In this document: positions 45,987 through 50,263 of the stretch, piece by piece
How the letters are laid out: every line of letters starts with the position of its first letter
Numbering within the stretch: position 1 is the stretch's first letter
Source: Sulfurimonas sp.
GTDB lineage: Bacteria; Campylobacterota; Campylobacteria; Campylobacterales; Sulfurimonadaceae
DNA length: 53,618 bases
Direction: 5' to 3'
Assembly: GCA_028689055.1 (NCBI GenBank)
Contig: JAQTWZ010000004.1
Span: 1,606-55,223, forward strand
The notes under the pieces: model-generated
What the model was told of the DNA's origin: nothing
What the model saw: the letters and a program-made list of their open reading frames with translations, nothing else
Database searches by the model: none
Translations under genes and position numbers: made by a program

Positions 45987-46003
45987 AGACAATGTTCATA
46001 CAA

Positions 46004-46045
46004 AAAGCCTAATATTTAATGGCTCTTAATGTCCAATTAGGCTTT
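46004..46045. terminator. Stem between convergent gdhA and the I9-like gene
   Basis: AAAGCCTAAT (46004-46013) and ATTAGGCTTT (46036-46045) form a perfect 10-bp stem with a 22-base loop. It lies 18 bp after the gdhA stop and overlaps the last codons of the convergent gene. Confidence 0.5.
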
Positions 46046-46380
46046 ACGGTATGTATATTCTCCTCTTTTGAAATGGACTGAATCACATCGTTTATATTGC
46101 TATTTACTCCATAAATATAGTACCCAATAACCAAAATTTGTTTAAATTTTAAATCATATTTTGCTTCAAAAGTATCGACTATTTCAGGTGTTATCTCTTT
46201 AAAGCTTACTAAAATATCAGAATTTTCATTATATTTCATACCCTGATATTCGCCTATTCCCTCATAAGTAGAACCATTATTTAGAAAAGTGATTTCAATC
46301 ACTTTTCCATCCTCTTTAATTTGAAAATTTTCACCGTATAAACTCATTACAAAAATTATAATTACAATTATTTTTTTCAT
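46009..46380 (-). CDS. Secreted inhibitor-I9/subtilase-propeptide-like protein
   Basis: A 123-residue exported protein with a signal peptide (about 1-16, ending SLYGEN). The body has alternating strands and helices, and the end ENIHTVKPNWTLRAIKY resembles the tail of subtilase propeptides (I9), which fill the protease cleft. It starts one base after the protease gene ends. Subtilases normally carry this domain in cis; here it may act in trans as folding chaperone or inhibitor. The link is inferred from fold-like pattern and position. Confidence 0.5.
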   Translation of the reverse strand: MKKIIVIIIFVMSLYGENFQIKEDGKVIEITFLNNGSTYEGIGEYQGMKYNENSDILVSFKEITPEIVDTFEAKYDLKFKQILVIGYYIYGVNSNINDVIQSISKEENIHTVKPNWTLRAIKY

Positions 46381-48372
46381 CTAATGTCCTACTATTTGAA
46401 GTTTTATAGAGTCAATGGAACCATTTTTTCCATTGTCATTTTTATCTGCGATATTGATTGTCCAAACTCCATTTGGATTTTCATCATAAAATGCTTGACT
46501 TGAAAGTCTCATTCTTATATACATCTCTTGGACAATTCCATTATCCTCTGGCATCAAATCTTTTTCATCAAGCATATTTTCTCCCTGTAAAAGTTCCGTT
46601 TTTGTCCCCGATGGTGAAGTTAAAGTAATCTGTAAATCACTCGGACGCAAATGTTTAAGAGCCTGAAAATAAACCCCTACCCACTCAACTTTTGCGATAT
46701 TAGTTACAATATTATTGGAATTAAAATCAATTCCACTACTACCAAAAGTGATATTTATAGCTGGATAAATATTTAAAATTGTGCTATTTATCTCTTTCGC
46801 TTCAGGCAAAGTTTGGAAGTTGTGACACACATCAAGCATCTCTCTAGCATCAACAACACCATATCCATAATCTACACTATGCCACAAATTCGCACTATTT
46901 TTGACCCAAGTAGGATTACTACTGTCAATTATATTGGAGGTTGTAGCTAAAAGATATTTGACATCTCTATAGGTCAAATCAGGACAAGCCTCCAAAACAA
47001 GTCCTATGATACCACTTACCATAGGAGCTGAGGCACTTGTGCCATTAAATTTTGTAGAGTATCCATTATTATTTGTAGTGGTTACTATATTGTTAGTATT
47101 TCCATCACTATCACCATAAGCAGTTACTAAAAGATTTGAGCCTTTTGAGGAATAATACGAAACAGTATCATTTTGATTGATTGAACCAACCGCGATTACA
47201 TATTGGTTGTTTGCCATATTTGAAAGATTTGAATTGCCAGTTAAAAACCTTGTATTGTCATTTTTAGAAGCCTTTGGAACTCTCGCATTTCCTCCAGCCA
47301 TCACATAAATTCTCCCTTTTCCATCTCGCAAAAGTGTTGCTCCTATTTTTGCAATATTTTCAGCATCGTAATAGTAATCAATCGAACTACCCCAACTATT
47401 GTTGGTAACTAAAATATCATTTGCACCATCTCCACTTAACCAAGCCTGCTCAAGACCTTGTAAGCCACTATGTGTGCCATTTTCATCTTCATACAAAAAA
47501 GCATAACCAACCAATTTGGAATAAGGTGCAACTCCCCGCACCCCTTTGCCATTAAATCCCCTAGCCCCTATAATACCAGCCACTTGGCTGCCGTGATTGT
47601 AGTCAGGATTCCAAGAAGTTGGGTCATTTTGTGGTGTGATAAGTTTTGGATTCCAAGAGTGATTTGCATCATAATTTTCTTTTAAATCTTCATGATTGCT
47701 TTCAAAACCATCATCAACAATTTGAATATAAGTTTGATTTATCCTTTTCCCTCCGATAGTATCTAAGCCTAATTTATCAATATACCATTGTTCATTGCGT
47801 TTGGGGTCATTACCAATAAGAGGAAAATTATTTATAAAATCATCCATTGTAGTTTTAGCAGTTGAATATGGTATAACCGCCCTATTATTTGGATCACCTA
47901 TGCTATCATTTGCATCAAGTAATTGTTTTATTTTGTCCGTTATTATAGTTTCATTTTCATCTAAACTTATCCCGATAAATTTATGGTTTTGTAGTTTTCT
48001 TACATCTAAAATCATATCTTCATCTCTGCTTGCATCTAAGCTCTGAAGCAATACCGCAATATTAATAGCCTGAATATTTGAATTATTTGTTTCCATAGAA
48101 TAAGGTGTAATGAGTGTTTGAGCCACAACTGTTCCCAAAGATAAATCTCCAAACTTAAACTCTACAGTTTCACCCTCAATATATTGATACTCACCTTTCT
48201 CATTTGTAAATCCACTTTTTGTAGTAGTTTTATAGTAAAGTCCTTGCACAGGAGAATCGATAAAAATACCCGTTTTGACTGTTTGATTATCTTCACCAGC
48301 TTCACCATTCCCACTATCTCCACAACCAATAAAAAATAAAGATAAAATACAAAATAAACTATAGAAATTCAT
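46381..48372 (-). CDS. Kexin-like subtilisin protease (S8) with P-domain, lipoprotein
   Basis: 663 residues from the ATG at 48372 (TGGTGG upstream). A lipobox ends the signal (LFFIGC). An N-terminal module (about 35-180; GIFIDSPVQGLYY, then GEYQYIEGETVEF) is the carrot-like module of surface proteins. The S8 domain (about 190-520) has Asp in IVDDGFE, His in HGSQVAGI, Asn in VTNNSWG and Ser in NGTSASAPMVSG. A C-terminal P-domain (about 540-663) follows, as in kexin/furin. Substrates would be extracellular or surface proteins. Composition is more AT-rich than the flanking genes, suggesting acquisition. No propeptide domain is evident in cis. Confidence 0.88.
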   Translation of the reverse strand: MNFYSLFCILSLFFIGCGDSGNGEAGEDNQTVKTGIFIDSPVQGLYYKTTTKSGFTNEKGEYQYIEGETVEFKFGDLSLGTVVAQTLITPYSMETNNSNIQAINIAVLLQSLDASRDEDMILDVRKLQNHKFIGISLDENETIITDKIKQLLDANDSIGDPNNRAVIPYSTAKTTMDDFINNFPLIGNDPKRNEQWYIDKLGLDTIGGKRINQTYIQIVDDGFESNHEDLKENYDANHSWNPKLITPQNDPTSWNPDYNHGSQVAGIIGARGFNGKGVRGVAPYSKLVGYAFLYEDENGTHSGLQGLEQAWLSGDGANDILVTNNSWGSSIDYYYDAENIAKIGATLLRDGKGRIYVMAGGNARVPKASKNDNTRFLTGNSNLSNMANNQYVIAVGSINQNDTVSYYSSKGSNLLVTAYGDSDGNTNNIVTTTNNNGYSTKFNGTSASAPMVSGIIGLVLEACPDLTYRDVKYLLATTSNIIDSSNPTWVKNSANLWHSVDYGYGVVDAREMLDVCHNFQTLPEAKEINSTILNIYPAINITFGSSGIDFNSNNIVTNIAKVEWVGVYFQALKHLRPSDLQITLTSPSGTKTELLQGENMLDEKDLMPEDNGIVQEMYIRMRLSSQAFYDENPNGVWTINIADKNDNGKNGSIDSIKLQIVGH

Positions 48373-48601: not shown

Positions 48602-49402
48602 ATGTGGCTACAGACGAGCTGCGATTTTACATTTGAGATAACTGTTCCGACACCTTTTGTGCTCATGTTGCGTCCTCGAAGCAATGTTTCGCAGTGGATT
48701 GCTTACGAAAAATACAAAGTGGTTCCGAGTGTTCCTGTCTTTGAGTTTACGGATATTTACGGCAACCTTTGCCAGCGACTCATCGCTCCCGTAGGAGACT
48801 TCGCTATCTATACCACTGCCAAAGTCATGACGGCTGATGTTGTAGAAGAAGCTCCCGGTGCGCCTTTTGTACCTATAGAAAATCTGCCTGATTCTGCACT
48901 TATTTATCTGCTTCCGAGCCGTTACTGTGAGTCGGAGCGCTTTAGTGCTATGGCTATGGAGATCACGGCAGATGCGCTTTTGGGCTACGATCAGGTGAGC
49001 GCCATCACAAACTGGGTACGCAACAATATCCGTTTTGAGTCCTATGACTCACACGTCCATGTCTCAGCTGCAGAGGTAAACGCAAGACAATCAGGCGTAT
49101 GCCGTGATCTTGCTCACCTAGCCATCGCGCTGTGTCGCAGTTTGAGTATTCCGGCGCGTATGGTTGTTGGATATCTTCACGGCCTAGAACCTATGGATCT
49201 TCATGCTTGGTTTGAAGTCTATGTAGGTGATCGTTGGTATGCTTTTGACGCGACCCAAGCTGAGATGCGTGCGGGTTATGTTATCATAGGCTACGGACGG
49301 GATGCGGCGGATGTCGCAGTATATAACCAATACGGTCCAGCACTCTATCCCATCTCCCAAACTGTGCGTGTACTGCAGATAAGTGACAATAGCTCTACCT
49401 AA
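48602..49402 (+). CDS. Transglutaminase-like cysteine peptidase-fold protein
   Basis: A 266-residue cytoplasmic protein. An N-terminal beta-rich domain (about 1-120) precedes a transglutaminase core. The triad is Cys in QSGVCRDLAH, His in DLHAWFEVYV and Asp in AFDATQ. Bacterial members act as proteases, amidases or peptide-ligase-like enzymes; the substrate is not known. AAAGGA lies before the ATG. It is followed after 9 bp by a second member, so the pair is probably an operon. Confidence 0.8.
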   Translation: MWLQTSCDFTFEITVPTPFVLMLRPRSNVSQWIAYEKYKVVPSVPVFEFTDIYGNLCQRLIAPVGDFAIYTTAKVMTADVVEEAPGAPFVPIENLPDSALIYLLPSRYCESERFSAMAMEITADALLGYDQVSAITNWVRNNIRFESYDSHVHVSAAEVNARQSGVCRDLAHLAIALCRSLSIPARMVVGYLHGLEPMDLHAWFEVYVGDRWYAFDATQAEMRAGYVIIGYGRDAADVAVYNQYGPALYPISQTVRVLQISDNSST

Positions 49403-49411
49403 GGATATGCC

Positions 49412-50263
49412 ATGCCCCGCTACAAAATCATCCATCGAACTTACTACAACTATAGTGATTTTGTACAGCTAGGGAGACATAGTCTGCGTTTACGCCCACG
49501 CGAAAATTATGAGCTTCATGTCAACTCTTTTACCTTAAAAATAGTCCCCCAAGCAAAACTTTTTTGGCATCGGGATGTTGAGGGAAATTCTGTAGCTATT
49601 GCAAATTTTGAAGCAAATACGCAACAGCTTTTTATAGAGAGTGAAGTGATACTTGAGCAGTTCAACGAGTCACCACTCAACTTTTTAGTCGCAGATTACG
49701 CGCTTTCTTACCCCTTTGTCTATGAAGCAGAGGAGAGATTTCTTCTGAGTGCTTATATGCTTTTGCCCCAAGAGACAACACGCACCCTGCTCAATGAGTG
49801 GATATTTAATGTCTATAAATCAAACGAACCTGTACAAACTTACACGCTACTTCAGAATTTGACAGCTCATATCTATAAAACGCTGCGTTATCAAGCCAGA
49901 GAAGAAGAGGGCGTGCAAAGTGTCGAAGAGACGCTCTCTCTTGGCTCAGGCTCATGTCGTGATTTTGCGCTGCTTTTGATGGAGGCTGTCAAATGTTTGG
50001 GATTGGCTGCGCGTTTTGTGAGCGGTTATCTTTATGCGCCACTGATGGCTTCAGAAGTCGGTTCTACCCATGCTTGGGCTGAAGTTTACATTCCCGGAGC
50101 AGGGTGGAGAGGATTTGATCCGACTATAGGAAACATCGTCGGAAGAGATCATATCCCCGTAGCAGTCTCAAGACTTCCTGAGTCTGTTCCTCCGATATCG
50201 GGTACTTTTGCAGGCGTAGCAACATCGACTTTAGACGTCGGAGTCTGGGTTTCTCAGATATAG
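49412..50263 (+). CDS. Transglutaminase-like protein with N-terminal beta domain
   Basis: A 283-residue protein beginning with the conserved bacterial transglutaminase N-domain (YKIIHRTYYNYSDFVQLGRH, then LRPREN). The core has Cys in GSCRDFALLLMEA, His in THAWAEVYIPG and Asp in GFDPTIGN. Pairs of such genes often neighbour circularly permuted ATP-grasp (DUF403/DUF404) genes in peptide-forming clusters; none is seen here. It ends 3 bp from the convergent modC. Confidence 0.82.
   Translation: MPRYKIIHRTYYNYSDFVQLGRHSLRLRPRENYELHVNSFTLKIVPQAKLFWHRDVEGNSVAIANFEANTQQLFIESEVILEQFNESPLNFLVADYALSYPFVYEAEERFLLSAYMLLPQETTRTLLNEWIFNVYKSNEPVQTYTLLQNLTAHIYKTLRYQAREEEGVQSVEETLSLGSGSCRDFALLLMEAVKCLGLAARFVSGYLYAPLMASEVGSTHAWAEVYIPGAGWRGFDPTIGNIVGRDHIPVAVSRLPESVPPISGTFAGVATSTLDVGVWVSQI

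Follow-up and report, generated by a model that had tools for sequence, protein, structure and literature searches.

Does the lipoprotein subtilase encoded in this stretch of Sulfurimonas DNA obtain its propeptide from a separate gene, and, if so, is such an arrangement an oddity of the locus? The minus strand of the window (the whole analyzed stretch, 53,618 nucleotides) carries a gene for a predicted lipoprotein subtilase with a P-domain (663 aa, 48372-46381), followed by one for a putatively exported 123-aa protein (46380-46009); export of the latter was judged from the signal-like N-terminus of its sequence. The original prediction of an S8 lipoprotein protease with a P-domain and an exported 123-residue neighbor was correct in coordinates and strand. 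The TAG of the protease gene (46383-46381) abuts the partner ATG (46380-46378) with 0 bp between them, and AGGA at 46390-46387, 6 nt ahead of this ATG and within the end of the protease gene, is the probable ribosome-binding site of the partner. Given this abutment and spacing, translation of the two genes is probably coupled. The features are as follows.

46384..48372, minus strand (stop codon 46381-46383): S8 subtilase with P-domain, 663 aa, predicted lipoprotein.
48322..48372, minus strand: predicted signal peptide and lipobox, protease residues 1-17 (FFIG followed by C17), from the sequence and a lipobox rule.
47803..48321, minus strand: N-terminal region of the protease, residues 18-190, by profile no propeptide.
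46900..47733, minus strand: Peptidase_S8 catalytic domain, residues 214-491 (D220, H260, N362, S446), from Pfam and alignments.
46396..46662, minus strand: proprotein convertase P-domain, residues 571-659, from Pfam.
46009..46380, minus strand: exported partner, 123 aa, predicted external propeptide (chaperone/inhibitor) with an ORF2-like fold.
46039..46215, minus strand: b-a-b-b-a-b propeptide fold of the partner, residues 56-114, from an AlphaFold2 model.
46012..46038, minus strand: last nine residues of the partner (115-123), a tail that ends Ile-Lys-Tyr and would occupy the active site, by analogy with the ASP-ORF2 complex described in PMC5638518.
46387..46390, minus strand: AGGA, probable ribosome-binding site of the partner in the end of the protease gene, from the sequence.
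46000..47649, no strand assigned: region of divergence from Sulfurimonas sp. GWF2_37_8, comprising catalytic, P-domain, and partner sequence, a putative exchanged cassette.

Pfam identified Peptidase_S8 at protease residues 214-491 (E 8.9e-44) and the P-domain at residues 571-659 (E 2.6e-12). Residues D220, H260, N362, and S446 were invariant in an alignment of 20 sequences (the window protein and 19 relatives) and aligned with their furin counterparts; D220, H260, and S446 also aligned with those of the Aeromonas sobria protease ASP, whose structures (3hjr, E 2e-38; 3wqb, E 4e-38) were the best PDB matches of the window enzyme. These features point to an S8 protease with intact catalytic residues and a P-domain. 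PADLOC assigned the protease a generic subtilase model plus a weak IetS match and gave no match on the partner. The enzyme had been described as kexin-like, which holds for its architecture, as S8 plus P-domain is common to furin and kexin, but not for its specificity: in a phmmer alignment Ile331 occupies the position of furin Asp258, the acidic S1-pocket residue for Arg/Lys, and the partner ends in Tyr. From this one aligned position, dibasic (kexin) specificity appears unlikely.

Furin and kexin carry a cis propeptide. In the window protease only S8 and the P-domain exceeded the Pfam cut-offs, with no I9-type domain among the matches, and the partner profile (A3) yielded E 1.8, i.e., no cis copy by profile. 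As originally predicted, the protease thus appears by profile to have no I9 propeptide in cis; none was found in residues 20-180, where one would have told against that prediction, and, since the AlphaFold2 model is of low confidence before residue 190, the absence is a sequence argument. The poor model of residues 18-190 favors a different reading, in which a divergent cis propeptide lies in that region and the small protein plays an additional, regulatory role. Treponema denticola dentilisin (PrcB-PrcA-PrtP) provides a precedent, because in the cited part of PMC8167434 it is an acylated subtilase for whose expression a partner is needed, and its PrtP is acylated at the N-terminus, has a cis propeptide, and is accompanied by partner lipoproteins. 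The dentilisin model NF033595 matched the window protease at E 6e-17, although its 61.4 bits fall below the curated cut-off of 300. We regard this reading as very unlikely, given the absence of any I9-type Pfam match, the E 1.8 of the partner profile, and the nature of the region itself. Residues ~20-140 form a module common to other lipoproteins, near whose N-terminus it lies; the five module-bearing lipoproteins that were scanned comprised one CAP protein, one S41 peptidase, one CarboxypepD_reg protein, and two with nothing telling. The module also has a weak match to SslE/AcfD lipoproteins (E 7e-5, well short of the curated cut-off).

The partner was modeled by AlphaFold2 from 23 sequences (pLDDT 82, pTM 0.73), and residues 56-114 of the model adopt a beta-alpha-beta-beta-alpha-beta arrangement. 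Foldseek searches of the PDB ranked 3wqb_B, the ORF2 protein bound to ASP, first with an E of only 0.026, followed at ranks 2-3 by the subtilisin prosegments 3cnq_P and 1spb_P. In VIA-align 2, the model aligned with 3wqb_B at Z 8.7 (91 residues, 3.1 A, model residues 15-123), which was the sole chain with Z ≥8 among 994 aligned; pro-subtilisin (Z 7.3) and the PC1/3 prodomain bound to furin (Z 7.0) came next. Presumably unrelated DNA polymerases with a similar arrangement reached up to Z 6.7, so the ORF2 match alone stands out. The model therefore places the partner in the ORF2 fold. Its end had been said to resemble an I9 domain, and this is true of the fold; the partner does not match the Pfam Inhibitor_I9 profile (PF05922) or any other Pfam or NCBIfam family. 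Of the structure prediction proposed as a check, the part on the small protein agreed with the original prediction, a propeptide fold being modeled with ORF2 as its nearest neighbor.

Sequence comparisons gave a fainter picture. No partner-to-ORF2 match was obtained by phmmer or by two profile searches of PDB sequences. In hhalign, the partner family aligned in register, weakly (prob 5.7, P 0.0067), with three gammaproteobacterial ORF2-like proteins; among these is a Pseudoalteromonas protein that is encoded 11 bases after an ASP-like protease and does not itself match ORF2. In Vibrio campbellii, a protein whose gene lies 12 bases downstream of one for an ASP-like protease weakly matches ORF2 (E 0.04-0.05). 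One relative of the partner gave a Fervidolysin_NPro-like match (E 0.013-0.014), in agreement with the fold, and Trep_dent_lipo, Moricin, and other weak Pfam or NCBIfam matches of single partners were taken as chance. A tblastn search of plasmids with the partner was negative at E up to 1.

The system that the window pair most resembles is ASP/ORF2 (PDB 3hjr, 3wqb, 2mk4), in which an S8 protease with a P-domain and no cis propeptide is likewise accompanied by an exported partner downstream, and whose two components are the best PDB matches of the window protease and partner, respectively. ASP needs ORF2, encoded just downstream, in order to mature (cited part of PMC5638518), and a 2022 survey of subtilases, in its cited portion, presents ASP as the exception to the use of the N-terminal propeptide as an intramolecular chaperone (PMC9549277). 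The window pair differs in that its protease is predicted to be lipid-anchored and has an added N-terminal module, in that its partner ends Ile-Lys-Tyr (Gln-Pro-Lys in ORF2) and is not recognizably related in sequence, and in that units of its type are spread through the Campylobacterota. Subtilisin prosegments and Fervidolysin-type propeptides (I9-like) share the b-a-b-b-a-b fold, with a tail expected in the active site; in contrast, the window partner is encoded in trans and matches neither I9 nor Fervidolysin_NPro.

We propose that the two genes encode a protease and its separate propeptide, which would act as folding template and inhibitor, and assign this reading a probability of roughly 0.85. 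It draws on what was computed here, namely the layout, the domains, the conserved catalytic residues, the partner fold, the repeated linkage, and the joint divergence of catalytic domain and partner. Export, lipidation, binding, chaperoning, inhibition, and the order of events we infer from the fold and from ASP, as follows. Both proteins would be exported to the periplasm, where the partner would template folding of the catalytic domain and its C-terminal tail (...Arg-Ala-Ile-Lys-Tyr) would plug the active site in the manner of a cleaved subtilisin propeptide. Degradation of the partner in trans would then leave an active enzyme, held at the membrane through lipidated Cys17 and the N-terminal surface-lipoprotein module. 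If, by analogy, the tail occupies the active site, its last residue suggests that the protease prefers Tyr or a similar residue at P1. A protease that folds unaided, with the small protein serving purely as an inhibitor for self-protection against periplasmic proteolysis, would fit the occurrence among the structural matches of POIA1, an inhibitor acting in trans (1v5i_B, Z 6.1 against the partner model), and the inhibition of ASP by ORF2 itself (IC50 84.3 nM in the cited part of PMC5638518). We consider this unlikely, because no cis propeptide was found in the window protease and its best PDB match, ASP, requires its ORF2 for maturation (same source). The trans chaperone/inhibitor pair of the original prediction is supported by the failure to find a propeptide in cis and by the ORF2-like fold of the partner; its novelty is not.

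How common such pairs are was assessed in the phylum. A single-sequence search of 397 phylum genomes found the partner at E ≤0.01 in 18, of which, apart from the window, six are clear, the weaker rows being apparently chance matches. The protease matched at E ≤1e-10 in 48 of the 397, many of these matches being to the N-terminal module or S8 alone, and by an eye count ~22 of the 397 have a match that reaches the P-domain; the remark that S8 proteases with P-domains are rare in the phylum was therefore fair. We then read 115 stretches (phylum genomes, GTDB contigs, and the window), picked by protease rather than by partner except for the first few, which gave 111 non-redundant S8 genes among the matches listed, 101 of them complete with flanks. 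Relatives of the window are overrepresented in this set, and some of its rows are closely related to one another. To call partners we used an iterated version of profile A3, and the iteration took in cis segments. Subtilases with frames >950 aa, taken for autotransporters by length, were mostly left out, and one locus whose title names no phylum (L098) was included on the basis of its position in the tree.

Among complete S8 genes with a P-domain, the window included, 45 of 52 had an adjacent partner (44 downstream and 1, L061, upstream). An adjacent partner is thus the rule among the Campylobacterota S8 proteases with P-domains examined. Complete P-less S8 genes among the matches listed had a partner immediately upstream in 21 of 49 cases, the proteases in all 21 being lipoprotein subtilases, and none in the other 28. 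The P-less lipoprotein proteases L227, L230, and L250 have no neighboring partner. All 74 partner-profile matches among 2,247 non-S8 ORFs adjoin an S8 gene on the same strand, a control that covers near neighborhoods, as the stretches were centered on S8 genes. For two of the seven P-domain proteases without an adjacent partner (7/52), the genome contains an unlinked one (G177, E 7.8e-23; G334, E 4.2e-22). In a third (G053), the clear partner match belongs to the other protease of the genome. For the remaining genomes (G196, G444, G445, and G047) no partner was found with a profile of limited sensitivity, as shown by its missing the upstream partners L162 and L180 of G196; a match in G445 (E 0.07) lies within a 437-aa frame and was dismissed as a partner. 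The survey for the two-gene unit suggested by the original prediction thus found it repeatedly, and this frequency, together with the published ASP/ORF2 pair, overturns the claim that the arrangement is unusual. It likewise makes it exceedingly improbable that the two genes are functionally unrelated chance neighbors, as the recurrent adjacency (45/52) is joined by a propeptide fold in the neighbor.

The last residue of the partner varies with the type of protease: 20 of the 22 that belong to P-less proteases end in Arg, and of the 47 that belong to proteases with P-domains, 17 end in Tyr and 11 in Arg. It may predict cleavage preference. Acidic S1 residues that might track Arg/Lys-ending partners were also sought; they did so in a few columns, at a best p of 0.001 over many columns, several of the acidic rows came from close relatives, and the idea was dropped.

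The partner domain also exists in cis. The unseeded profile A3 matches the N-terminus, ahead of the catalytic domain, of two non-lipoprotein S8 proteases (L179, E 3e-9; L168, E 3e-5), and the iterated profile matches a cis segment in seven (L241 at just 9e-4). Other non-lipoprotein genes have an I9-type or Fervidolysin propeptide in Pfam, clear in L224, L228, and L241 and weak in L215, L216, L219, and L221; the Pfam scan gave neither for L213, L222, and L243. Of 71 complete lipoprotein S8 genes, by contrast, none has the domain in cis and 61 have a partner next door, versus a partner gene in 1 of 25 non-lipoprotein genes (L082); five rows with unreliable starts (L060, L067, L074, L110 at 3203, and L220) were excluded. 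The raw Fisher p for lipobox versus partner is 1e-13 under a lipobox rule that was loosened once plain lipoboxes were seen by eye to be missed; the stricter first rule gave a table of 53, 10, 9, 24 and p 6e-8. Mapped onto a catalytic-domain tree (110 domains), the lipobox shows 6 changes and the partner 5, and just 3 independent pairs are supported (1 changing the same way, 0 opposite, and 2 with no difference). The association is therefore strong in raw form yet rests on few phylogenetic events, and as a relation between independent events it is not established.

Outside the phylum, both forms recur. Four S8 proteases with P-domains (from Nitrospirae, Candidatus Magnetomicrobium, Actinomycetota, and Desulfomicrobium) have an N-terminal region that we read as a cis propeptide, in which Pfam named nothing except a weak Peptidase_S8_N in two; A3 aligns with these regions in register, weakly (prob 30, P 5.5e-4). 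The gene that follows a gammaproteobacterial lipoprotein protease matches the cis region of these four over 148 columns (hhalign prob 97.8, E 7e-13). Tentatively, and at somewhat less than even odds, the Campylobacterota may have split off the propeptide because cleavage in cis would lose the N-terminal lipid anchor; the split would have arisen at least 2 times and would have made the anchor module and a catalytic-partner cassette independently exchangeable. The two origins would correspond to a partner upstream of P-less subtilases and downstream of those with P-domains. Dentilisin PrtP, acylated and with a cis propeptide, loses its lipid in the mature complex and, in the cited part of PMC8167434, is not among the subunits that keep theirs; the mature complex is held by PrcB and PrcA1. 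ASP-type Vibrio proteases have a trans partner and, by eye, no lipobox, so the anchor cannot be the sole reason for splitting.

The closest relative found, among GTDB contigs, is Sulfurimonas sp. GWF2_37_8, which has the same genes in the same order at the same site. This shared site suggests that the locus is older than the split of the two species. The locus is patchy in the genus: no other same-genus genome in the phylum sample matched the partner in the single-sequence search, and one (G356) has a divergent unit elsewhere (L070). The four flanking genes (sdhB, gdhA, and two on the opposite side) share 95-98% protein identity, with dS 0.42-0.48 and dN 0.008-0.023. Protease residues 1-215 have dS 0.26 and a raised dN of 0.09. 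Synonymous divergence then rises to 1.13 (5-95%, 0.89-1.47) in catalytic residues 216-510 and is 0.74 in residues 511-663 and 1.18 in the partner, which is 43% identical; dN is 0.25 for residues 216-663 and 0.49 for the partner. Identity drops from about protease residue 242 (the estimated break) to the end of the partner, and a single break gave an LRT of 92, versus ≤20.8 in 200 shuffles. The simplest reading is that a single cassette, made up of catalytic domain, P-domain, and partner, was exchanged while the conserved lipoprotein N-terminus was kept.

Rapid diversification of the catalytic domain, P-domain, and partner, instead of recombination, would explain the high dN there relative to the flanks, and also the raised dN of residues 1-215. 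It is a rather unlikely account, since it is dS as well as dN that rises, at one sharp break, and since a partner identity of 43% is usual at a catalytic identity of ~74%: in most other pairs at 0.73-0.76 catalytic identity the partners are 38-43% identical. Partner and catalytic distances are correlated across 46 pairs (Spearman 0.57, permutation maximum 0.15), to which shared ancestry contributes. Exchange as a cassette also bears on the supposition that the whole block looks acquired, because the comparison with GWF2_37_8 reveals a catalytic-P-partner replacement and not a whole-block insertion. The block is AT-rich, moderately so (GC 0.329 versus a mean of 0.381, with 37 of 513 overlapping same-size windows lower). 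Its near lack of AAACGCAR (1 found, 3.4 expected) is uninformative and was rejected as a sign of acquisition, as 25% of same-size windows have ≤1.

The arrangement is not unique, ASP/ORF2 being already in print. Titles and the starts of abstracts, with few subscription journals among them, contained no report of split-propeptide subtilases in Campylobacterota, nor any of a lipoprotein subtilase whose propeptide has its own gene. A separately encoded propeptide, thought to be rare, looks common in this phylum, with 66 adjacent units (45 with P-domains, including the window, and 21 P-less), some of them close relatives. These units occur in two gene orders, and related proteases hold a cis version of the domain, so that the origin and use of trans propeptides become testable by comparison. 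The units also suggest why lipid-anchored proteases would need a propeptide in trans, and they provide natural pairs for studies of chaperone-enzyme specificity and swapping.

The S8+P subtilases, which combine a Peptidase_S8 catalytic domain with a P-domain, usually have the gene for the partner, a small exported protein predicted to act as an external propeptide, downstream. The protease at L061 (2882-4782) was the sole S8+P enzyme with this gene upstream instead, and three loci (L063, L073, and L110) displayed a tandem arrangement of two consecutive S8+P proteases with one partner each. At L022 (3430-5163, on a contig shared with L080), the protease frame was interrupted by a stop within the P-domain while the partner gene was open, possibly reflecting a pseudogene or an assembly error.

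Partner homologues also occurred as orphans:

L023, 9194-9577: orphan partner homologue
L024, 4496-4879: orphan partner homologue

No subtilase was found in the sequence stretches around these two genes, and both genomes encode an S8+P protease on a different contig, without an adjoining partner. A small gene, judged by eye to be desulfoferrodoxin-like, adjoins each orphan.

Beside the unit in the window lie genes that the original prediction labelled transglutaminases:

Window, 48602-50263: two adjoining genes

Homologues of the first were detected in only three other genomes (70-72% identical) of the 60 genus genomes searched, and no protease was found beside them in the surrounding stretches examined.

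A further class comprised Campylobacterota lipoprotein subtilases that lack a P-domain and have a propeptide-like gene directly upstream:

L162-L163, L166-L167, L169-L171, L173-L178, L180-L181: P-domain-less subtilase, propeptide-like gene upstream
L223, L225-L226, L229, L231-L232, L248: further loci of this class

Because arginine is the C-terminal residue in 20 of the 22 partners from these Campylobacterota loci, the results suggest that the P-domain-less subtilases with Arg-ending partners are Arg-cleaving enzymes.
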